The translations under genes and the position numbers were made by a program. From contig NZ_AP023212.1 in the NCBI RefSeq assembly GCF_016593255.1, positions 248,001-312,000 of the forward strand: a DNA stretch of 64,000 nucleotides, read 5' to 3'. Source of the stretch: Hydrogenimonas urashimensis. Lineage in GTDB: Bacteria > Campylobacterota > Campylobacteria > Campylobacterales > Hydrogenimonadaceae. Below the pieces are notes generated by a model that saw only the letters and a program-made list of their open reading frames with translations, searched no databases and was not told where the DNA came from. Shown here one piece after another: positions 4,113 through 23,044 of this stretch (position 1 is its first letter; each line of letters opens with the position of its first letter).

Positions 4113-4382
4113 TTGAAAATCATGATTCAAAACGAAACCGTCCGGCTCGAGGAAGTGGGGCAACTCTATCCGGCAGCCATCATCAGGTATGCAGACGGGA
4201 CCGTGACACAGATTTCTCTGGAGTGGTATGACGAAATGGCCAACAACGATGTGGAACTTCTGCATTATGCCATCTGCATCCACTATAAAGAGGAGGGGAG
4301 AGAACCTCTCGTCTTTTCATACGAAGACCGCAGCAAGCTGGAAGAGGCGATCGGTCAGCTCGTCTCCCAGTTTCGATCATGA
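4113..4382 (+). CDS. Hypothetical protein, TTG start
   Basis: An 89-residue soluble protein of unknown function with a beta-rich middle (IIRYADGTVTQISLEWYDEM) and an acidic C-terminal helix (DRSKLEEAIGQLVSQF). TTG at 4113 is chosen because AAGGAG at 4101-4106 lies 6 bases before it, whereas the next ATG at 4122 is too far from that site. The 3' end overlaps the tail of nspC on the other strand by 6 bases. Confidence 0.65.
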   Translation: MKIMIQNETVRLEEVGQLYPAAIIRYADGTVTQISLEWYDEMANNDVELLHYAICIHYKEEGREPLVFSYEDRSKLEEAIGQLVSQFRS

Positions 4383-5513
4383 GAGACGGTATTTGAAATC
4401 TTCGTAGCCGAAACGTCGGACGATCTCAAGTTCGTTCTTTTTGGTCCAGATGGCGATGGAGGGATGCTGCACGCCGTTGAATGTCGTGCTTTTGACCATC
4501 GTGTAGTGTATCTGGTCCTCGAAGACGATTTTGTCCCCGATTTCGAGTGGTTCGTCGAAGCTGTAGTCTCCCATGATGTCTCCGGCAAGGCAGGTGTTGC
4601 CTCCTAGGCGGTAGGTGTAGCGCTTCTCGCCCGCCTTTCCGGCACCGCGCACTTCGGCCCGATAGGGCATGGCCAGGGTATCGGGCATATGGGCTTCCGC
4701 CGATACGTCCAAAATGGCTATATCCATGCCGTTGTGGACAATGTCGAGTACCGAAGCGACGAGCGGACCGGTCTGCCACCCCACCGCTTCGCCCGGCTCC
4801 AGATAGACCGTCACATTGCCGTGGCGACTTTTGAATTCGCGGATTACGTCGATGAGACGAGCCACATCGTAGTCTTTGCGGGTGATGTGGTGACCGCCGC
4901 CGAAATTGATCCATTTCATTTTCGGAATATAGGCACCGAACTTCTCTTCGAACGCATCGAGCACGCTCTCTAGCGCATCGACATTCTGTTCGCAGAGGGC
5001 ATGGAAGTGAAGTCCCTCAAGCCCATCGAGAAGATTGGAGTCGAAATTGTCGATTGTGGTGCCGAGCCTGCTGTAGAGCCCGCAGGGATTGTAGAGATCC
5101 ACCGGCGCCGAAGAGAATTCCGGATTGACACGCAAACCGCAGGAGATTTGCGGATTGGCCGATTTGGCCGTTTTCAGAAACCGCCTTACCTGGTTGGGAG
5201 AGTTGAAGATGAGGTGGTCGCTGATGCGCGCGATGGTTTCGATCTCCTCTTCCTTGAAGGCCGGGGAGTAGGTGTGCACCTCCTTGTCCATCGTTTCCCG
5301 CCCCAGCATCGCCTCGTGCAGACCGCTCGCGCTCGTTCCTGCGAGGTATTTTCCGACAAGATCGAAAGTGCTCCACATGGCAAACCCCTTGAGTGCGAGC
5401 AGAATTTTCGCGCCGCTCTCTTTCTGCACGCGGTCCAGGATTTTCAAATTGCGTTCCAGCATCGCCTCTTCGCAGACGTAGCAGGGGGTTGGGATGATGG
5501 AAAGGTCGATCAT
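4377..5513 (-). CDS. nspC: Carboxynorspermidine decarboxylase
   Basis: This PLP-dependent enzyme of the alanine-racemase-fold decarboxylase group removes CO2 from carboxy(nor)spermidine, the last step of the aspartate-semialdehyde route to spermidine used in Campylobacterota. Lys42 in ALKGF is the PLP Schiff-base lysine. HALCEQ and INFGGGHH hold the cofactor phosphate, EPGE is the family signature near the active site, and NTCLAGD carries the catalytic cysteine donated across the dimer. At 378 residues it is full length. The partner dehydrogenase is at 11369-12562 on the same strand, separated from this gene by the cassette array. Confidence 0.95.
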   Translation of the reverse strand: MIDLSIIPTPCYVCEEAMLERNLKILDRVQKESGAKILLALKGFAMWSTFDLVGKYLAGTSASGLHEAMLGRETMDKEVHTYSPAFKEEEIETIARISDHLIFNSPNQVRRFLKTAKSANPQISCGLRVNPEFSSAPVDLYNPCGLYSRLGTTIDNFDSNLLDGLEGLHFHALCEQNVDALESVLDAFEEKFGAYIPKMKWINFGGGHHITRKDYDVARLIDVIREFKSRHGNVTVYLEPGEAVGWQTGPLVASVLDIVHNGMDIAILDVSAEAHMPDTLAMPYRAEVRGAGKAGEKRYTYRLGGNTCLAGDIMGDYSFDEPLEIGDKIVFEDQIHYTMVKSTTFNGVQHPSIAIWTKKNELEIVRRFGYEDFKYRLS

Positions 5514-5560: not shown

Positions 5561-5860
5561 TCAAGGCTTTTCATAATAGTATTTATAGACTTCATGCCCG
5601 CCGATATCGAGAAAAAAAATCCTCTCGTCGACAATGACGATATCGATCACCATGCGATACTGCATATTGATGGATATGCTGTAAAATTCCCGCTCTTTTT
5701 TTATATTTTACAGAAAAAACTCCACTTTTAGACTGTTCCAAATTCTGGGAGAAAACCACTGTGTCCTAAGTGAAACATTCTGTTCAGCCGCCAACCAATT
5801 GAGAAACGACTCGATTCCCTCCTTTCCCATATGAATGAGATGCTTTTTTATCGGTGCCAT
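5561..5860 (-). pseudogene. RelE/ParE-like toxin gene broken by an in-frame stop
   Basis: Reading from an ATG at 5860 with a strong GGAGGA site at 5865-5870, the frame gives 50 residues and then TAA at 5708-5710. The same frame continues for 48 more codons without another stop until TGA at 5561. The second half ends in a pattern typical of small RelE/ParE toxins (YRMVIDIVIVDERIFFLDI, then GGHEVYK). The total of 98 codons plus the stop is the usual length of such toxins. No antitoxin gene is visible on either side. It is best read as a decayed toxin gene, although translation of a 50-residue N-terminal peptide cannot be excluded. Confidence 0.6.
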
Positions 5861-5892
5861 TTTATCCTCCTGATAGCGGTACATTTTGTCAT

Positions 5893-5955
5893 GCTATTGG
5901 ATAAATGAACATTATCACGATAAAATGTGTTGATAATGGCTGAAAAACCAATAGC
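5893..5955. repeat. Nested inverted repeats in the spacer before the cassette array
   Basis: Outer arms GCTATTGG (5893-5900) and CCAATAGC (5948-5955) enclose inner arms CATTATCA (5910-5917) and TGATAATG (5931-5938). The two-stem layout recalls a folded attC site, but the AAC and GTT core boxes are missing, so I give it no name. The rest of the 5861-6134 spacer holds only the hairpin and repeat listed next. Confidence 0.45.
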
Positions 5956-6030
5956 AAGAGACCGTAAAACAGGTAAATTGTAGTAAAAACCAATAAAATG
6001 AGCACAAAATATATCAATTTCGAAATATCT

Positions 6031-6070
6031 GAAAAATAGCACAACATTTTTTGTGTCGTGCTATTTTTTC
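6031..6070. terminator. AT-rich hairpin at the left edge of the cassette array
   Basis: GAAAAATAGCAC (6031-6042) pairs with GTGCTATTTTTTC (6058-6070) with one bulged T around a 15-base loop. The A and T runs at the two ends would let it act as a terminator in either direction. It marks the boundary between the toxin pseudogene and the first cassette. Confidence 0.5.
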
Positions 6071-6086
6071 ATGACGAGGTGTTTAG

Positions 6087-6118
6087 TATACTTTGTTCGT
6101 ACAATAAATAGTTCTGCG
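6087..6118 (+). repeat. Cassette-junction repeat, copy 1
   Basis: A 32-base segment that matches 8600-8631 at 29 of 32 positions; shared parts include TTTGTTC and TACAATAAATAGTT. It ends in GTTCTGC, which resembles the GTT core box of an attC site, just before the first cassette gene. It may be the 3' part of a lost attC, and it may also carry promoter elements (TATACT, TACAAT). Confidence 0.6.
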
Positions 6119-6134
6119 TTAAAAAGGATATATC

Positions 6135-6776
6135 ATGAATTTTAGTGATTGGTTGTTGTCCACAATCGGGACTGGAGCAATATTATCCGGAGTTGGATGG
6201 ATATTGCGTGATTGGATAACTAGTCGTCTGAAAAAAGCAATTGAGCATGATTATAATAAAAAACTTGAAAAATATAAATCCGACTTAAAATCAGAAACTG
6301 ATAAGCAATTATTAATATTGCAATCGAAAGCAAATGTTGAATTTGAAAAATTCAGAGTTAGAATAGGTCGTTATACTGAAAAACAATTTGAACGATACAA
6401 TGAGCTATGGGTTAAATTAACAGAACTACGGCATACTATGGATGATCTATGGGAATCTGCAAATGAAAGAACTCTAAATAGATTTTCAAGAGACCTTAAC
6501 AATACATTCAGAATTCTTGAGAAAAGTGCATTGTTAATTGAACCGAATCATTATAGTGAGCTTATTGAGGCATTAAACGTATTTGCCAAATATCAAATAG
6601 GAAAGAAGACGCTAATAGAATTGAGAAAGCATACGGGCAACCAATATGTGTCTAATATTAAAGAACGGATTCAGGAGTTAATTATGACCAATGGACATCA
6701 TAGGAATCGCCTCAATCAAGCGATGCAAAATTTAATGGACGACATGCGGAGACAAATAAATGGCACAAATGAATAG
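6135..6776 (+). CDS. Cassette 1: membrane-anchored coiled-coil protein
   Basis: A 213-residue protein of unknown function. Residues 5-25 form one hydrophobic segment (LLSTIGTGAILSGVGWIL in part). A long charged helical region follows (KKAIEHDYNKKLEKYKSDLK onward, about 33-85) that should form a coiled coil facing the cytoplasm, and then a mixed helical C-terminus. It has a GGAT-type ribosome site before ATG 6135. The codon usage is AT-rich and unlike the flanking core genes. The general plan, a short N-terminal anchor plus coiled coil, is shared with cassette 2. Such proteins are common among integron and phage cargo of unknown role. Confidence 0.8.
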   Translation: MNFSDWLLSTIGTGAILSGVGWILRDWITSRLKKAIEHDYNKKLEKYKSDLKSETDKQLLILQSKANVEFEKFRVRIGRYTEKQFERYNELWVKLTELRHTMDDLWESANERTLNRFSRDLNNTFRILEKSALLIEPNHYSELIEALNVFAKYQIGKKTLIELRKHTGNQYVSNIKERIQELIMTNGHHRNRLNQAMQNLMDDMRRQINGTNE

Positions 6777-6777
6777 C

Positions 6778-6849
6778 ACAGAACAAAGCGCTCCACCTGA
6801 CCGCTATTCCGCTGCGCTCCATAGCGGCAGGTGAGCTTTGTCGTTATAT
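6778..6849 (+). other. attC recombination site of cassette 1
   Basis: AACAAAGC (6782-6789) pairs with GCTTTGT plus GTT (6836-6845), with an unpaired C before GTT. Inside, CACCTG and CCGCTAT pair with ATAGCGG and CAGGTG. The extra unpaired bases lie on one side, as in real attC hairpins. It begins within or just after the stop of cassette 1. Confidence 0.8.
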
Positions 6850-6871
6850 ATCAAAAAAAGAAGGAACATAA

Positions 6872-7270
6872 ATGTTAGAAAACATAGATTTAAAAAATAT
6901 TATATCAAGTATTGCAATAGTCGTATCAGTATTTATCGCAGTTTTTGGATGGTATTATAATAGTCAACAAAATAGAAAACATGAAATTTTTAAAAGAAGT
7001 ATGGATGCAAGAATAAAACTTTTAGAAGATTATTTATTGTTTTTTCAAAATGCTCAAGAAACTAAATCGTTAGATGGATTTAATAAAATACAAGTTAGAT
7101 TTTACATTTATGGCAATAAAGATGAAATTGAAATTGTTAAAACTATTTCTTCTGAAATAGAAAAAAATAAACAAATGACTAAAGAAATATTTGACAATTT
7201 TATAAAACTTAATAAACTAACAAGAGATAGACTAAGAGAAGAGATAGGGTTAGATAAAGTAGATATATAA
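6872..7270 (+). CDS. Cassette 2: small membrane-anchored coiled-coil protein
   Basis: A 132-residue protein of unknown function. Residues about 10-28 (IISSIAIVVSVFIAVFGWYY in part) form a single membrane helix. The rest is charged and helical (NRKHEIFKRSMDARIKLLED, later SSEIEKNKQMTKEIFDNFIK). AAGGAA lies 7 bases before ATG 6872. It is very AT-rich. It has the same layout as cassette 1 but no clear sequence identity with it. Its stop overlaps the start of a possible attC. Confidence 0.75.
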   Translation: MLENIDLKNIISSIAIVVSVFIAVFGWYYNSQQNRKHEIFKRSMDARIKLLEDYLLFFQNAQETKSLDGFNKIQVRFYIYGNKDEIEIVKTISSEIEKNKQMTKEIFDNFIKLNKLTRDRLREEIGLDKVDI

Positions 7271-7332
7271 CAAGTTATTGGAGAGAAATATTTGACCGTA
7301 CGGTCAAATATTTCTCAATTCAGTCGTTCGTT
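7264..7332 (+). other. Possible attC of cassette 2, with a 34-bp perfect palindrome inside
   Basis: ATAACAAGTTATTG (from 7267) and AATTCAGTCGTT (7317-7328) are in the positions expected for the two outer arms. Between them, 7283-7316 is a perfect palindrome centred on GTAC at 7298-7301; its left half begins GAGAAATATTTGACC. Natural attC sites usually have unpaired bases that set strand choice, and a perfect inner stem is unusual, so the attC call is tentative. The palindrome itself is certain. Confidence 0.5.
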
Positions 7333-7465
7333 TCTGACGAAACGATTAAAAAGACAGGACGATTGAAGACAAGACGATAAAAAAAATTATCCTGCTTATC
7401 CATGTGAATATTATTCGTTTAATTCGCATAATTAGCAGTTAGAAATAGTTATGTCATTAATAATC

Positions 7466-8570
7466 TGCATAAGTTCAGAAACATATGGCACTCCAGCAAG
7501 GAGTGAGTATGCAGACCGATTATCTCTTTCATGGCCTCAAAGGCTTCAAAAGATTACAAAGCGTATGCTATCGTTTGCAGATGCAAACCAACACGGCACT
7601 GAAACGATTGAAGATTTTGAAGTTCTACGACAAGTGGGATCTTGATGCCACCCTGGAAGCGTTCGATATCAGTAGACGAACGCTCTATCGATGGAAGGCT
7701 CTTTACAAAGAGAGCGACGGGGATATCCTTTCGCTCAACCCCCGCTCCAAAGCTCCGAAGAAAAAGCGTCAATCCCAAACACCCGGAGAGATCGTGGAAA
7801 AAATAAGAGAACTCAGATCGACGTACCCCAATATGGGAAAAGCCAAACTCTATCATCTGCTCAAACCCTGGTGTGAAGAGAACCGGCTGCCTGTGGTTTC
7901 GGAATCGACGATCGGCAGAGTGATCGCCAACGATAAGGACAAAATGCGGCTGATCCCCTATCGAATCGACTCCAAAGGAAACGTCAAACCCAAAAGAAGA
8001 GTCTTCAAAAACCGGAAACCAAAAAACCTCAAAAGCAAACCGATGCGTCTATGGGCAGTGGATACGATCCAAAGAGTCTGTGACGGGATGAGACGATACA
8101 TTATGACGCTCGTCGATCCACATAGCCGCGTCGCCTTCGCCGTCGCCATTCCCACCCGACACTCCAAACATACGGCCAATGTGCTCAATGCACTCCTTGA
8201 AGGTCTCTTTGATACCGCCCATGTCACGACAAAACCCCGATCCTTCTGTATCCTCTCCGACAATGGCAGTGAATTCATGAAACTCTTCGACGCCTTGGTA
8301 CAGGAGAAAGGGCTGACCCATTACTGGACCTATCCAAGAAGTCCCAAAATGAACGCCCACAACGAAAGATTCAATCGGACACTCCAGGAACAGTTCGTGG
8401 ATTTTCACGAAGATCTGCTCTTTACGGATATCGAACTGTTCAACCAAAAAATGGCCGAATGGCTTGTCGATTACAACACTCTCATCCCTCATCATTCCCT
8501 TCGATTGAAACCTCCGGTACAATACCTGATTGAACATCATCCGGAGTGCCATATGTGGTGGACTAATACA
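7466..8570 (+). mobile_element. Insertion sequence with DDE transposase (IS481/IS3-like)
   Basis: Inverted terminal repeats bound the element: the inner 14 bases ACATATGGCACTCC (7481-7494) are repeated exactly in reverse at 8543-8556, and the outer parts TGCATAAGTTCA and TGTATTAGTCCA (reverse complement) agree at 9 of 12 positions. The element is about 1.1 kb and carries one transposase gene. I see no clear target-site duplication. It lies between cassette 2 and the second junction repeat, so it appears to have landed in the array. Confidence 0.75.
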
Positions 8571-8582
8571 TGCTATTTATAG
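7509..8582 (+). CDS. IS transposase, DDE integrase core
   Basis: This 357-residue transposase has an N-terminal helix-turn-helix region (DATLEAFDISRRTLYRWKAL), a basic linker and a retroviral-integrase-type catalytic core. The three acidic residues are in LWAVDT, LSDNGSEF and HNERFNRT. AAGGAG just before ATG 7509 sets the start; the upstream ATG at 7485 lies inside the terminal repeat. The stop codon at 8580-8582 lies 12 bases beyond the proposed right end of the element, so the last residues come from the target DNA. The frame is intact, so the element may be active. Confidence 0.85.
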   Translation: MQTDYLFHGLKGFKRLQSVCYRLQMQTNTALKRLKILKFYDKWDLDATLEAFDISRRTLYRWKALYKESDGDILSLNPRSKAPKKKRQSQTPGEIVEKIRELRSTYPNMGKAKLYHLLKPWCEENRLPVVSESTIGRVIANDKDKMRLIPYRIDSKGNVKPKRRVFKNRKPKNLKSKPMRLWAVDTIQRVCDGMRRYIMTLVDPHSRVAFAVAIPTRHSKHTANVLNALLEGLFDTAHVTTKPRSFCILSDNGSEFMKLFDALVQEKGLTHYWTYPRSPKMNAHNERFNRTLQEQFVDFHEDLLFTDIELFNQKMAEWLVDYNTLIPHHSLRLKPPVQYLIEHHPECHMWWTNTCYL

Positions 8583-8599
8583 AGTGGCGGGGAATATGG

Positions 8600-8631
8600 T
8601 ATAGTTTGTTCATACAATAAATAGTTATGCG
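8600..8631 (+). repeat. Cassette-junction repeat, copy 2
   Basis: This matches 6087-6118 at 29 of 32 positions and ends in GTTATGC, close to the GTT core box of attC sites. It stands just before cassette 3, 30 bases to the right of the insertion sequence. It is probably what remains of the junction upstream of cassette 3. Confidence 0.6.
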
Positions 8632-8660
8632 CCATAAAAGTAAGTGAAAGGGAAGTTTTT

Positions 8661-9503
8661 ATGTTCAATCTAATTGTCAGTGGAAGCGGATGGGCAGAAA
8701 CTCGCGATACTTTCCCGCTTGGCAGAATATTCGAATACACCACTGATGATATTGTTGAGCGGTTCAAGCCTGGCGGGATCATTAATTTCGACGCCCTGAG
8801 GAACCTTCCGACCGTATTCATGGAAGAGACATGGGGCGATGGAAAGCAATTAGCAAGAGTCGGAACAATTATTCGGGCGAGAATAACTGGAGGAGAAGTG
8901 TCATTGGAATATTTTTATGATCCAGATGTTCCGCCCATTCCAAATAAGGCCATAGAATCGATCTCAAGTGAATTAGACATCCGAGACTTTGAATTCAATC
9001 GCACGCATTGGGCTGTAAAAGATCAAGACTTATTTCGGGTGTTATTTCGTCATTTTCAACCACGCCGATTAAAACCCAAGGTTTTTTCATTAAACGAACC
9101 AGAACAAATAGAAAGTGTTCTAGCTTCTGCAATGATGCCTTTTTCCCCGCATTTTGATTCGGTATATGATGCCCTAAAAACTGTTTGTGAAAAGGTTGGC
9201 TTTAGGTGTAGAAGAGCGGATGATATTTGGGAGAATCCAGCTGTAATTCAGGACGTTGTTTCCCTTATTGATAGATCGAGGGTGGTTATTTGTGACTGCA
9301 CAGGTAGGAATGCAAACGTGTTCTATGAGGCTGGGATCGCTCATACATTGGGACGTGAAGTAATTCTAATCACGCAATCAGAAGCAGATATCCCGTTCGA
9401 TTTGCGCCACCTGAGGTATGTTCATTATCTAAATAATGGCGAGGGGTTGCTTGAATTACAAACAAAACTCGAGAAGCGGCTATCTGATATTGCTGGGAAC
9501 TAG
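8661..9503 (+). CDS. Cassette 3: protein with TIR/deoxyribosyltransferase-like C-terminal domain
   Basis: A 280-residue soluble protein with AAAGGGAAG before its ATG. The N-terminal 140 residues are unfamiliar (GSGWAETRDTFPLGRIFEYT, ETWGDGKQLARVG). The C-terminal part, about 155-275, has the Rossmann-like pattern of nucleoside 2-deoxyribosyltransferase and TIR-like effectors: FDSVYDALKTVCEKVGFRC, RADDIW, IDRSRVVICDCTGRNANVFY, EAGIAHTLGREVILIT. The invariant features are the aspartate of CDCTGRN and the glutamate after NVFY. Related domains occur in antiphage proteins that cleave nucleotides or bind them, so a defence effector role is plausible but inferred. Confidence 0.75.
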   Translation: MFNLIVSGSGWAETRDTFPLGRIFEYTTDDIVERFKPGGIINFDALRNLPTVFMEETWGDGKQLARVGTIIRARITGGEVSLEYFYDPDVPPIPNKAIESISSELDIRDFEFNRTHWAVKDQDLFRVLFRHFQPRRLKPKVFSLNEPEQIESVLASAMMPFSPHFDSVYDALKTVCEKVGFRCRRADDIWENPAVIQDVVSLIDRSRVVICDCTGRNANVFYEAGIAHTLGREVILITQSEADIPFDLRHLRYVHYLNNGEGLLELQTKLEKRLSDIAGN

Positions 9504-9510
9504 GGTTAAC

Positions 9511-9595
9511 GCATAACAAGCGGGTGCACTTGACCGCCAATCCGCTGCGCCCTACGGGCTTGCGTCTTGTCGGCAAGTGATCCTTGTCGTAATGT
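9511..9595 (+). other. attC recombination site of cassette 3
   Basis: GCATAAC (9511-9517) is a near-consensus left core box. AACAAG pairs with CTTGT before a GTA-type right box (9584-9591). CACTTGACCG pairs with CGGCAAGTG with one bulged base. The loop is GC-rich. It starts 8 bases after the stop of cassette 3. Confidence 0.75.
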
Positions 9596-9678
9596 GTGAA
9601 AGGCCGAGAAACCTTAAATACCCTTTTGATTAAATGAGCGTTGGAAACCATAAACCGCGAAGTGAAGTATAAAAGGCA

Positions 9679-10335
9679 ATGTTTTTTAAAAAACTCAGAA
9701 TTTTGGAGAACAGATTATTTATTATGAATTCATTTTTAGAAAAGTTGTTTTGTATTATTGCCATTGATACTGAACATTTAATTAACTCGTATTTAACGCA
9801 AAGTGAATTACAGTACCTGAATAATTCCTTGAAATCTATAAAAGACTTAAATGGTGAGTTTTATACTACCTCAGAAGGTGAGAATCTAGAGGTATTGCTT
9901 TATTTTTTATATTGTCATAAAGAAGATATTCTGACTCTATGGGAAGATGAGTTTAAAAAAGAAATACTTGTGAGGCTATATACATCAGGAGTTATCTCTG
10001 GAAATTATCCATGTTTTCATTTTGATCTGTCTAAATTCAAACAAACTTATAAATCAAGCGGTCAAACATTGACTTTGTATCGAGTTGGCAGAGAACAGGA
10101 GCAAAAAGAAAACTTAGGAAACTCATGGTCTACAAGCACTACCGGCTTGAAAAACTACGTTCAATCATCTTCAATAGAAGTAGAAAATAACCCTGTATTT
10201 GTTATTGAAATAAATGACTCAGAAGTATTGTGTGAAGGTAATTCTCGAGAGAATGAATTGATATTAAAGAAAGGCTTTAAATTTAATAGTATTAAGTCAC
10301 TTGATATTGAACAAAAGCGTCAGCTTTTTGAGTGA
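9679..10335 (+). CDS. Cassette 4: probable ADP-ribosyltransferase
   Basis: A 218-residue protein. Its C-terminal half carries, in order, the three marks of the R-S-E class of ADP-ribosyltransferases: LYRVGR (the NAD-binding Arg), SWSTST (the STS motif) and RENELIL (an E-x-E motif), followed by KKGFKFNSI, the usual strand after the catalytic glutamate. The spacing is right for a compact single-domain ART. The N-terminal 110 residues are helical and unfamiliar. There is no signal peptide, so it probably acts inside the cell, as a toxin or defence effector. The start is uncertain: ATG 9724 is an alternative, and neither has an ideal ribosome site. Confidence 0.7.
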   Translation: MFFKKLRILENRLFIMNSFLEKLFCIIAIDTEHLINSYLTQSELQYLNNSLKSIKDLNGEFYTTSEGENLEVLLYFLYCHKEDILTLWEDEFKKEILVRLYTSGVISGNYPCFHFDLSKFKQTYKSSGQTLTLYRVGREQEQKENLGNSWSTSTTGLKNYVQSSSIEVENNPVFVIEINDSEVLCEGNSRENELILKKGFKFNSIKSLDIEQKRQLFE

Positions 10336-10361
10336 TATACTGTGCTTGTGGTATTAAAAAC

Positions 10362-10454
10362 ACCTAACAAGTGCGTCAACTTGGACTGGTTAACCCGCCG
10401 CTTCTCGTTCCTTGTCACTCTGGGTTAGCCAGCCGGTTACGTAAAACGTTAGAA
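10362..10454 (+). other. attC recombination site of cassette 4
   Basis: ACCTAAC (10362-10368) fits the left core consensus and GTTAGAA (10448-10454) the right core at six of seven positions; the two can pair as CTAAC/GTTAG. Inside, CTGGTTAACCC pairs with GGGTTAGCCAG with one mismatch. The site is 93 bases long, within the normal range. Confidence 0.78.
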
Positions 10455-10468
10455 GCTACTAGGAATAT

Positions 10469-11320
10469 ATGATGGCATCTCTTGCAGAAGAATTAATGCA
10501 TACGACTGTCAGGCTTGAAGGGAAAAAAATACAAGGAACTTCTGTTGGGACAGGGTTCTTCTTTATGCATGAGCAACGATTATTCCTTATAACAAACAAG
10601 CATGTTGTAGAGGGCATAGTTCATGGCAATTTTGTGGTGTTGAAAGGAAAGGTCGATGGCAAGACAAAAAAGCCTTTACTCGGTCAAGGCTACAGGTTCT
10701 CATTCAACGCAAATAATTTTATAGGCCATCCAAATCCAGATGTAGACGTGGCTGCTATGAATGTTTCAGCAATATTCAGCGAAGCTGAGAATAACGGAGA
10801 CATACTGTTCTGGAAGAATCTTACGGAAAGGGAATTCCCCACACAAGAGCAGATTGATAAATTCATTTCCCCAATAGAGGAAGTTGTATTTATCGGGTAT
10901 CCAAGTGGCATATGGGACACGAAAAATATTCTCCCAATAATAAGAAAAGGCATAACAGCCACTCCTTATTATATAGACTTCGATGGGCAAAAAAAATTTC
11001 TGATTGATGCATCCGTATTCCCAGGTTCCAGCGGTAGCCCTGTATTCATCTACTATGCTGGAGGATATCCAGATAAAGAAGGGAATCTTTATGCGGGAAA
11101 CAGACTGCACTTTTTAGGGATTGTCGCGCAGGTATATAAACGCGTAGAGCAAGGTGGTATTCGTATTGTCAATATCCCAACACAACAACTGCCTGTCGCA
11201 GAAATTGACCAAATGATCGACCTCGGCATCGTATTTAAGGCGGAAACAATAAAAGAATGTGTGGAATATTATGTCAACGTGGTCAATGCTTCTAACAATA
11301 AAATCCAGCCGGCGCAGTAA
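10469..11320 (+). CDS. Cassette 5: trypsin-like serine protease
   Basis: A 283-residue protein with a chymotrypsin/trypsin-like fold. The triad is visible as His in LITNKHVVEG, Asp in NPDVDVAAM and Ser in FPGSSGSPVF. No signal peptide or membrane helix precedes the domain, so it probably works in the cytoplasm. This fits the peptidases found as effectors in several antiphage systems, though that role is inferred. There is no PDZ or other extra domain. AGGA lies before ATG 10469/10472. The last codons overlap the start of the final attC site. Confidence 0.8.
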   Translation: MMASLAEELMHTTVRLEGKKIQGTSVGTGFFFMHEQRLFLITNKHVVEGIVHGNFVVLKGKVDGKTKKPLLGQGYRFSFNANNFIGHPNPDVDVAAMNVSAIFSEAENNGDILFWKNLTEREFPTQEQIDKFISPIEEVVFIGYPSGIWDTKNILPIIRKGITATPYYIDFDGQKKFLIDASVFPGSSGSPVFIYYAGGYPDKEGNLYAGNRLHFLGIVAQVYKRVEQGGIRIVNIPTQQLPVAEIDQMIDLGIVFKAETIKECVEYYVNVVNASNNKIQPAQ

Positions 11321-11347
11321 ACTGCGCGGCTGATTTAATCGTTAATC
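11290..11347 (+). other. attC recombination site of cassette 5
   Basis: A compact 58-base site. TTCTAAC (11290-11296) and GTTAATC (11341-11347) are the core boxes. AGCC plus GCGCAG pairs with CTGCGC plus GGCT around a TAAA loop with one bulged G, and AAAT pairs with ATTT. It is the last attC before core sequence resumes. The same hairpin could also end transcription. Confidence 0.75.
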
Positions 11348-11368: not shown

Positions 11369-12562
11369 CTACACATTCATCTCTATCACATGCCACGGCA
11401 GCCCCTGGCGGTTAAGCTCCTCCATGAAGGGGTCGGGGTCCATCTGCTCCATATTGACGGTGCCGGGCCGCATCCACTTGCCTTCGCACATCAGTTTGGC
11501 GCCGATCATGGCGGGCACGCCGGTGGTGTAGCTCACACACTGAGCGCAGACCTCTTTGTAGGCTTCCTGGTGGTCGCAGATGTTGTAGATGTAGATTTTT
11601 CTCCTTTCGCCGTTTTTGATGCCTTCGCAGACGACGCCGATATTGGTCTTTCCCTTGGTGCGGGGACCCAGGGTCGCCGGGTCGGGGAGCAGGGCTTTGA
11701 CGACATGCAGAGGCACGACTTTGCAACCGTCCACTTCGATGGGGTCGATGCGCGTGAGGCCGATGTTGTCGAGGACTTTGAGGTGAGTCAAGTAGCTTTC
11801 GCCAAAGGTCATCCAGAAGCGGATGCGCTTGAGGCCGGGGATGTGCTTGATTAGCGACTCCTCCTCTTCATGGTAGAGAAGGTAGCTGTCCTTGGGTCCG
11901 ATGTCGGGGTAGTCCCAGACCATCTTCACCGCCATCGGTTCGGTCTCCTTCCAGTCGCCGTTCTCCCAGTAGCGCCCTTTGGCGTTGACTTCGCGGATGT
12001 TGATTTCGGGGTTGAAATTGGTGGCGAAAGGGTAGCCGTGGTCGCCGGCGTTGCAGTCGAGAATGTCGATGTACTCTATTTCGTCGAAATAGTGCTTGAG
12101 GGCGTAGGCGCAAAAGACATTGGTGACACCCGGGTCGAAACCGCTGCCTAGCAGTGCCATGAGCCCTTTGGCTTTGAAATCGGCATCCTTGGCCCACTGC
12201 TCCTTGTACTCGAATTTCGCCGTATCGGGGTGCTCGTAGTTGGCCGTATCGAGGTAGTGGATGCCGGTGAGCAGGCAGGCATCCATGATGGTCAAATCCT
12301 GGTAGGGAAGGGCGACGTTGATGACTACACAGGGCCGCACTTTTTTGATGAGCTGCACCAACTCCTCCACATTGTCGGCATCCACCTGTGCCACGTCGAT
12401 CGTCTTACCCTGCATCCGTTCGATCTCTTCCTTGATCTGCACGCATTTTTCCAGCGTGCGGCTGGCCAGGGTGATATGGTCGAAAACATCGCTGTTTTTG
12501 GCGCATTTATGGGCGACGACCCGGCCGACCCCTCCGGCTCCGATAATCAAAACTCTGCTCAT
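11369..12562 (-). CDS. Saccharopine dehydrogenase family protein, probable carboxynorspermidine synthase
   Basis: A 397-residue NAD(P)-dependent enzyme. The Rossmann motif GAGGVG is at residues 8-13 and the family core follows (VVINVALPYQDLTIMDACL in part, LDTANYEHPD, GSGFDPGVTNVF). In Campylobacterota such proteins condense aspartate semialdehyde with putrescine to give carboxyspermidine, which NspC decarboxylates. The presence of nspC at 4377-5513 on the same strand supports this reading over lysine metabolism. ATG 12562 is preferred over 12568 because AAGG lies at the right distance. Confidence 0.88.
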   Translation of the reverse strand: MSRVLIIGAGGVGRVVAHKCAKNSDVFDHITLASRTLEKCVQIKEEIERMQGKTIDVAQVDADNVEELVQLIKKVRPCVVINVALPYQDLTIMDACLLTGIHYLDTANYEHPDTAKFEYKEQWAKDADFKAKGLMALLGSGFDPGVTNVFCAYALKHYFDEIEYIDILDCNAGDHGYPFATNFNPEINIREVNAKGRYWENGDWKETEPMAVKMVWDYPDIGPKDSYLLYHEEEESLIKHIPGLKRIRFWMTFGESYLTHLKVLDNIGLTRIDPIEVDGCKVVPLHVVKALLPDPATLGPRTKGKTNIGVVCEGIKNGERRKIYIYNICDHQEAYKEVCAQCVSYTTGVPAMIGAKLMCEGKWMRPGTVNMEQMDPDPFMEELNRQGLPWHVIEMNV

Positions 12563-12658
12563 GTTCATCCTTGGAAATTGAAGTAGGTTATTATACCAAG
12601 CGATAGTTTCGATATAATCACGTCATTTTACAGAGTTTCCGAAAATAGGGATCGACCC

Positions 12659-21836: not shown

Positions 21837-22913
21837 TCACTCCGCATCCTTTGCTATTTCGTCCATCACGCTCGCCGCCTCCCTGAGTCGCTCTTTGTCG
21901 AAGTGGGTATAGATGCGTGAAGTGTCGAGACTGGCATGACCAAGCGCCTCCTGGACCAGTACCAGGTCTTTCTTCTTGAGGTAGAGCATCGTGGCGAATG
22001 TGTGCCGAAGCATGTGGGCGCCGTTTTTTTCCTTGCGAATTCCCGCCTGCATCAGGATCTTCTCGACGATACGGCTCACGTAGGCCTGGGTGAGGAGAGT
22101 GCCCTTTTTGTTGCAGAAGAGCAGGTCCCCATCGCACTTGCGAAGAAGGAGCCACTCCTGGAGATATTTTTTAATATGAGACTGTTTGATCATGACGACA
22201 CGCGCTTTGTTGCCCTTGCCGACGATACGGATGAGATAGACCTCGCCTTCGGGGATCAGGTCTTTGGTTTTAAGCTGCAGGGCCTCTCCGACACGGATGC
22301 CGGTAAAGAGTATCAGTTTGATAAGCATCCGGTTTCTGGCGGCAACGGCGCGTTGAAAGGGGTGGGTTTCGATCGCTTCGATGAATCGCTCGACTTCGGC
22401 TTCTTGCATGTAGGCCGGAAGTTTGGTACCGCTTTTGCCCCCCAGGCCGCCCCAGTTCTTGAGTTCTATGCCGAAATGGTGCGCCGAACCGTCTTTTTCG
22501 GCATTCTGTTTGTCGATATAACCGAAAAAGTTGATCATGGCGATACGGTAGTTCTTTTTCGTCGCGTCCGACAGTCCCGCCGTGGCGGAGGCCAGAAAGT
22601 CGCTGAGAAGCTCTTCGTCTATCTCCTTCATACTCGCCGGTCCCATGGCTGCCAGGTAACCGTAGAGCTTCTCCAGGGGCTTGTAATAGGTGTTGATACC
22701 GATCAGCCCCGCATTTCGGGCTTCCTTTGAAAGACGCGAGAGCGTTTCGATGGAATCGACGCCGCGTCGCAATCGGCCGATGATACGTGCCAGTGCCTGA
22801 GAATCTTTCACCTGACGGTTGGAGAGAGAGTTGAGTTTGGAGTGCATGTACCGACTCATCCAAAAGAGCAGAGTACGCTCGAAACGATCTTCGCAGTCAA
22901 GAGGATAGCGCAT
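21837..22913 (-). CDS. xerH: Tyrosine recombinase XerH
   Basis: XerH is the single-recombinase Xer protein of Campylobacterota that resolves chromosome dimers at difH. The 358-residue protein has the N-terminal core-binding domain with the typical KARNAGLIGINTY-like segment (here EARNAGLIGINTY) and KKNYRIAMINFFGYIDKQN. The catalytic set is Arg in FTGIRVGEALQL, Lys in the beta-hairpin, His-Arg in HMLRHTFA, His in LGHAS and Tyr in RIYTHFD. The start at 22913 follows the family alignment; the longer frame adds 31 unrelated residues. A difH-like site lies about 130 bases upstream. Confidence 0.93.
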   Translation of the reverse strand: MRYPLDCEDRFERTLLFWMSRYMHSKLNSLSNRQVKDSQALARIIGRLRRGVDSIETLSRLSKEARNAGLIGINTYYKPLEKLYGYLAAMGPASMKEIDEELLSDFLASATAGLSDATKKNYRIAMINFFGYIDKQNAEKDGSAHHFGIELKNWGGLGGKSGTKLPAYMQEAEVERFIEAIETHPFQRAVAARNRMLIKLILFTGIRVGEALQLKTKDLIPEGEVYLIRIVGKGNKARVVMIKQSHIKKYLQEWLLLRKCDGDLLFCNKKGTLLTQAYVSRIVEKILMQAGIRKEKNGAHMLRHTFATMLYLKKKDLVLVQEALGHASLDTSRIYTHFDKERLREAASVMDEIAKDAE

Positions 22914-23044
22914 ACAAATCCTTAGCAGGCGGACAGCGGGACGCTCACTCTGTTCGCTTGGCAAGTTTGGAATAAACACAGATTTCTGTGTCATTGTACC
23001 CGCCAAAGGCGTGGAGCGATTGTCCCGCTCGCCGTTTTGTAAAA

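Follow-up and report, generated by a model that had tools for sequence, protein, structure and literature searches.

Campylobacterota were counted among the phyla that carry integrons in a 2021 review (PMC8618304), and loss of the integrase gene, intI, with survival of the cassettes has been described in Treponema phagedenis (PMC3607928) and in Xanthomonas (PMC12444791). Copies of the attachment site attI inside cassette arrays are on record from class 1 and class 2 integrons, and for chromosomal integrons they are merely supposed in the same work (PMC12901181). The authors of IntegronFinder regard attI as poorly described outside class 1 (PMC9024848). Here we describe a locus within a window of 64 kb (G000:C1:248001-312000; all positions below are those of this window) taken from the complete genome of Hydrogenimonas urashimensis, a single contig of 2,297,889 bases. 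We conclude with high confidence that the locus is a decayed sedentary chromosomal integron, composed of a divergent intI stub, a leader, an attI site and a cassette array.

With the decayed integrons of T. phagedenis and Xanthomonas, and with clusters of attC sites lacking an integrase (CALINs), the locus shares an attC array, at a chromosomal position occupied by related platforms, in which the function of intI has been lost and the cassettes have been kept. It differs from those of T. phagedenis and Xanthomonas in that an intI stub and two attI sites remain, in that it belongs to another phylum and in that it occupies a site between the genes lys1 and nspC. Compared with Campylobacterota integrons in which intI is intact (G252, G203 and G287), it has the same attI core, leader, attC type and divergent intI-attI layout, whereas those systems retain intI and possess longer arrays of up to 10 chained cassettes. 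Taken singly, then, it is a worn example of a kind already on record, Campylobacterota integrons being known and, among the genomes compared, common. An earlier note on this DNA had supposed such arrays to be much less well known from the phylum than from Vibrio and related bacteria, a view at odds with the review (PMC8618304) and with our count: of 397 genomes in its class, 34 carry intI above the curated cut-off. The presumed placement of these genomes in Campylobacterota agrees with the NspC match and with gene content.

What is less ordinary, judged against the open-licence PMC papers with which we compared it, is the occurrence of several attI sites per array or genome, which recurs in relatives. 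Among described systems, the delta-attI-type cassette of mobile integrons (classes 1 and 2) comes closest: in it a partial or complete attI stands within an array where an attC would be expected and has cassettes behind it. The second attI of the present locus also lies within an array and ahead of cassettes, and may likewise take the place of an attC, the unit to its left being cut by an insertion sequence. The present arrangement, in contrast, is chromosomal, lies in Campylobacterota and keeps 53 bp of the second site; the relatives keep up to a whole leader of ~240 bp, with several copies per genome.

The integrase stub and its attI site

The remnant of intI lies at 5759-5860 on the minus strand and preserves 34 recognisable codons (MAPIKK-HLIHMGKEGIESFLNWLAAEQNVSLRTQ), having suffered an internal deletion and the loss of its 3' part. 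Its best NCBIfam match is the integron integrase family TIGR02249 (positions 35-64, E 0.0018). Alignment with the intI of a sister genome, G074 (MAPIKKKLLDM...HDKKHPIHMGKAEIESFLSWLAAEQNVSPTT), indicates that some 40 codons are gone between two Lys-Lys pairs, and at the DNA level this alignment runs on through the intI start codon, the leader and attI. The leader, which extends from the intI start codon to the first attI site (5861-6030), could be aligned to G409 as well as to G074, and a profile built from 27 intI-adjacent platforms matches 5844-6113 with an E-value of 1.9e-23.

The first attI site, attI-A (6031-6111, plus strand), comprises a hairpin at 6032-6068, a Pc-like -10 box (TATACT) and a crossover G at 6111, directly before cassette 1. 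It is nearly identical to the attI that accompanies intact intI genes in Campylobacterota. In 27 intI loci of the phylum the conserved core, AATAAATAG^TT, follows a TATAAT-like box at a distance from intI of roughly 200-350 bp, in most cases 260-300; here the core, with its leader and its G^TT crossover, stands 250 bp from the start codon of the stub.

No intact intI was found anywhere in the complete genome, the best TIGR02249 score, 47 bits, falling short of the cut-off (265). This score belongs to a tyrosine recombinase of 389 aa at 21837-23006 (minus strand), which was considered as IntI and rejected on that score and on its 23% identity; the genome has four recombinases of the phage-integrase type, this one among them. 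The earlier proposal of an integron cassette array without a working integrase is thereby supported across all 2.30 Mb. Its statement that the window contains no intI-like gene holds for an intact gene and fails for the stub, and the phrase 'without an integrase' undersells a locus that is a complete integron in decay, with a stub and two attI sites, as opposed to a plain CALIN.

A finder that ignores attI sites and stubs would formally class the locus as a CALIN (at least two attC sites within 4 kb, without intI). A CALIN proper would have formed by off-target insertion of cassettes through an IntI encoded elsewhere, and no full integron would ever have existed at the locus. Off-target insertion is one of the common explanations for CALINs (PMC8618304), and an intact intI is absent both here and in the rest of the genome. 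Such insertion, however, would not bring with it an intI stub, a leader and an attI in canonical layout directly upstream of the cassettes, and we consider this origin very improbable.

Cassettes, attC sites and junctions

Downstream of attI-A are five cassettes in the same orientation, each ending in one attC site; three of the sites were recognised by a covariance model, one by its geometry and one in a damaged state. The model, R1, was trained on 16 attC sites from Campylobacterota arrays with intact intI, from class 1 integrons (plasmids) and from a plasmid of the cyanobacterium Kovacikia, none of them from the window. Its structure was supplied by hand, RNAalifold having placed only 10 pairs on a MAFFT alignment of attC sites. 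Applied to both strands of the window at E<=10, R1 returned exactly three sites, all within the array: attC2 (7265-7332; 32.9 bits, E 3.8e-5), attC4 (10362-10454; 24.5 bits, E 0.0033) and attC5, the last site of the array (11290-11347; 21.4 bits, E 0.017). With filters off, attC1 (6778-6849) became the fourth match in the window, at 13 bits and E 0.12.

A separate geometric test demanded an AAC box, a stem beginning 15-17 nt in, one to three extrahelical bases on the L'' side and a GTT box. The sites beginning at 6778, 7265 and 11290 pass it with 13, 15 and 11 paired bases, respectively, and a shuffled region is expected to yield 0.0075 hits of 11 or more. The remaining site, attC3 (9511-9595), has its R' box altered to GTAATGT and was delineated by hand and by folding, showing canonical geometry in which CACTTG pairs at position 17 and one A is extrahelical. 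attC2 represents a type common in Campylobacterota integrons (TTGGAGAGAAATATTTGACC...), and the same type occurs at loci with intact intI. Thus the five plus-strand inverted repeats of the earlier note, each directly behind a plus-strand ORF, are present where it had placed them, and the covariance search it had called for recovers three of the five. A search of the whole genome with R1 at E<=1 gave this array alone among the 150 of 289 first-look candidates that were scored. Rfam at its gathering threshold found no attC; to our knowledge, Rfam holds no attC family. Two simpler finders were discarded: a loose AACAA..GTTA pattern performed at chance level, and a search for R''-R' complementarity on single sites gave only noise, because within an array R' belongs to the next cassette and the proper comparison is with a cassette's own 5' end.

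That comparison ties the sites together. With crossover at G^TT, the 5' end of a cassette carries the cassette's own last six bases, and R'' is expected to complement that end. Over cassettes 1-5, R'' and the cassette's own 5' 7-mer agree at 32 of 35 bases (6, 7, 7, 5 and 7 of 7), and only one of the 120 possible pairings, the true one, reaches 32. R'' fits its own 5' end better than the following R' in four of the cassettes and equally well in the fifth. The G+C content of the cassettes, 0.23-0.44, also sets them apart from the flanks, at 0.56.

Cassette 1 (6112-6843, plus strand, as are all that follow; GTTCTGC versus R'' ACAGAAC) carries an ORF of 213 aa at 6135-6776, whose product has an N-terminal membrane segment. 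Cassette 2 (6844-7326; GTTATAT versus ATATAAC) encodes 132 aa (6872-7270) and has distant relatives in six other genomes. Cassette 3 (8625-9589; GTTATGC versus GCATAAC) encodes a protein of 280 aa (8661-9503) with a C-terminal TIR-like domain (PADLOC TIR effector, E 8e-10). Cassette 4 (9590-10448; GTAATGT versus ACCTAAC) encodes 218 aa (9679-10335); its relative at 61% in Vibrio diabolicus likewise forms a cassette, whose attC is of the VCR type and whose R'' reads ACCTAAC. Cassette 5 (10449-11341; GTTAGAA versus TTCTAAC) encodes a trypsin-like peptidase of 283 aa (10469-11320) of the PDC-S45 kind (PADLOC PDC-S45, E 1e-93). In the family-profile searches, cassettes 1, 2 and 4 had no usable family match.

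Cassette 5 also supplies evidence of mobility. A contig from a Gammaproteobacteria metagenome-assembled genome (MAG) contains it at 91.6% DNA identity over 895 bp, from crossover to crossover (G^TT), so that the same boundaries are found elsewhere. The 5' end of that copy reads GTTAGAG and its R'' CTCTAAC, both ends having changed together relative to those seen here. The contig may be misbinned, and a different DNA neighbourhood of the cassette is demonstrated regardless; as binned, one cassette with crossover-exact boundaries is seen in two phyla.

Cassettes 3 and 5 probably serve in phage defence, to judge from the families that their products match. Sedentary integrons are reportedly stores of anti-phage genes, according to Darracq et al. 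2025 and Getz et al. 2025, as cited in PMC12444791. The present locus resembles such stores in its defence-family cassettes (the TIR-like effector and PDC-S45, and in G074 a reverse transcriptase with Toprim), and differs in that the array is small and is known in this respect from family matches alone.

A more prosaic interpretation is that the locus is nothing but usual chromosomal genes, each of which happens to be followed by a hairpin or by a Rho-independent terminator. attC-like hairpins can act as terminators, and attC1 and attC3 score poorly. Against this stand the attC model and shuffle statistics, the chain of junctions, the attI homology, the crossover-exact copy of a cassette in another phylum and the adjacency of lys1 and nspC in relatives that lack these genes; we give the idea practically no credence.

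The lys1-nspC site, the second attI and the order of events

On its left the element is bounded by nspC, encoding carboxynorspermidine decarboxylase (4377-5513, minus strand; TIGR01047 at 560 bits, over the cut-off; structure 3n29, E 3e-136), and on its right by lys1, encoding carboxynorspermidine synthase (11369-12568, minus strand; NF043000 at 424 bits, below the cut-off of 800; Sacchrp_dh_C, E 3e-45). The two genes represent two steps of the carboxynorspermidine/carboxyspermidine route. They are separated by 5.9 kb here and by ~13 kb in G074, whereas the gap is 0-100 bp in eight relatives and 585 bp in two more, and in most congeners the genes are adjacent. The element splits the lys1-nspC operon. 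Of the two outcomes that the earlier note had named as fatal to its interpretation, neither is seen: the attC model does give hits at the stated positions, and the gene order is not conserved as ordinary chromosome in relatives.

The lys1-nspC interval of G074 contains two complete leader-attI platforms with 227 bp in common. The cassette behind the second (L083 8149-10134) closes with an attC whose R'' matches, and its product of 587 aa is a reverse transcriptase carrying a Toprim domain (PADLOC RT-Toprim_I-C, E 5e-185); the intI of G074 has an in-frame stop. Across the genus, traces of intI occur in four of 18 genomes, one of them above the cut-off. One further genome, G409, carries an attI and another, different intI stub at the same place beside nspC; it belongs to another clade, whereas the present genome (G000) and G074 are sisters.

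A second attI site, attI-B (8572-8624, plus strand), stands within the array, with a Pc-like box (TATAGT) and a crossover G at 8624, before cassette 3. It shares 78% identity with attI-A over 54 bp and was matched in the attI search at E 1.2e-6. Its left part is lost at an IS481-like insertion sequence (IS; 7467-8571, plus strand) lying between cassettes 2 and 3, which also cuts the unit on the left: from the attC2 crossover to the IS there remains a truncated cassette (7327-7466), identified by position only, in which neither an ORF nor an attC was found. The IS has imperfect terminal repeats of 28-29 bp (matches at 7481-7494 and 8543-8556), and no target duplication was seen around it. No other full copy exists in the genome, only a second, fragmentary one whose match runs to 8571. 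The transposase ORF (7485-8582; NF033577 IS481, 176 bits, below the cut-off of 224) overruns the inferred right end of the IS at 8571, its last codons and stop being supplied by the attI-B remnant, and the end of the IS or the gene may therefore be truncated. The inventory of the earlier note had missed the transposase gene, along with both attI sites and the intI stub.

These features suggest a history in several steps. An integron platform, with divergent intI, a leader bearing Pc and an attI, would have come between lys1 and nspC, and IntI, while intact, would have captured gene cassettes by recombination at G^TT. The array may then have gained a second attI, either because the platform was duplicated or in the form of a delta-attI-type unit, and the IS481-like element would afterwards have removed the left part of this attI. 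Later, intI presumably shrank to its 34-codon stub. The array would now be frozen because the genome holds no IntI, with both capture and excision of cassettes impossible unless IntI were to arrive in trans. The Pc-like promoters at both attI sites could still drive the cassettes, attI-B providing cassettes 3-5 with a promoter of their own, and transcription of the cassettes from Pc at attI probably continues. The locus would thus offer a stepwise view of the death of a chromosomal integron: an intI stub, an intact attI, and cassettes frozen yet probably readable.

A variant of this order of events has one integron joined at the IS either to another or to a delta-attI-type unit, such that cassettes 1-2 go with attI-A and cassettes 3-5 with a separate platform brought in by IS-mediated deletion or recombination. 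attI-B begins exactly at the right end of the IS, the IS lacks a target duplication, the cassette on its left is unfinished, and G074 shows that two full platforms can occupy the same site. The IS, however, is now single-copy, the partner for such recombination being gone, and G116, G318 and G396 have internal attI sites with no IS. We regard the variant as a serious contender, at somewhat under an even chance.

Several observations weigh against a decayed integron as the account of the whole locus. The intI stub taken by itself is a weak profile match and draws its weight from its context. attC1 is weak, and attC3, with its damaged R' box, was missed by every model, R1 included. Cassette 4 matches its own R'' at just five of seven bases. 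With 150 of the 289 candidates scored, there is room for further weak attC sites elsewhere in the genome. Finally, attI-B, only 53 bp in length, abuts the IS, and its mode of arrival is not visible.

Two smaller observations concern the chromosomal site. In two congeners, G399 and G405 (L084 and L085), the lys1-nspC gap holds a different insert of roughly 590 bp, which we take to code for a Uma2-like protein; the site therefore takes inserts repeatedly. Between the intI stub and nspC, at 5590-5710 (minus strand), lies the end of an ORF, 34 codons in length (MQYRMVIDIVIVDERIFFLDIGGHEVYKYYYEKP), which is partly present in G074 and recalls the end of a RelE-type toxin; Pfam and NCBIfam gave no match to it.

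Additional attI sites in Campylobacterota

The conservation of the Campylobacterota attI makes such sites searchable, and a search of this kind exposes genomes with several attI sites and no intI, which finders that rely on intI and attC would overlook or describe incompletely. Twenty regions were picked from an attI pattern scan. The pattern itself was present in 114 of 397 genomes, a count not used as a frequency, given that a reversed control matches roughly half as many. In the surveyed regions, attI occurs without intI, alone or within arrays (for example in G116, G318 and G396), and one extra attI (L155) abuts an intI fragment. Of 34 attI-like sites, a set that takes in the window and the intI loci, 13 are followed within 3 kb by a first attC with an R'' in perfect agreement with the 7-mer next to attI, as against 19 of 576 random GTTR starts taken as a control; cassettes have therefore been inserted at many of the extra attI sites. 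The idea that a secondary attI is a mobile unit of fixed length was dropped: the upstream length shared among copies in the same genome varies from ~12 to 243 bp, and worn copies of the platform therefore fit better.

Tentatively, and with rather less than even confidence, we propose that the Campylobacterota integron is a multi-site system, with several attI-Pc units per genome, both in arrays and at separate loci, that would have captured cassettes through an IntI that either acted in trans or has disappeared in the meantime. If this is true, the two-attI array of the window would be one worn example.

Other arrangements were also noticed. G326 (L156-L160) has five attI-like sites and no detectable intI, with attC downstream of some of the sites. 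In G287 (L095/L018, around L018 1163-1220), ~40 bp separate the attI on the intI side from a second, oppositely oriented attI core. Besides the usual attC sites of 67-71 nt, L095, L096, L097, L099 and L107 contain longer attC sites, of 132-135 nt, in which the inner loop is long; some of these sites are similar across genomes.

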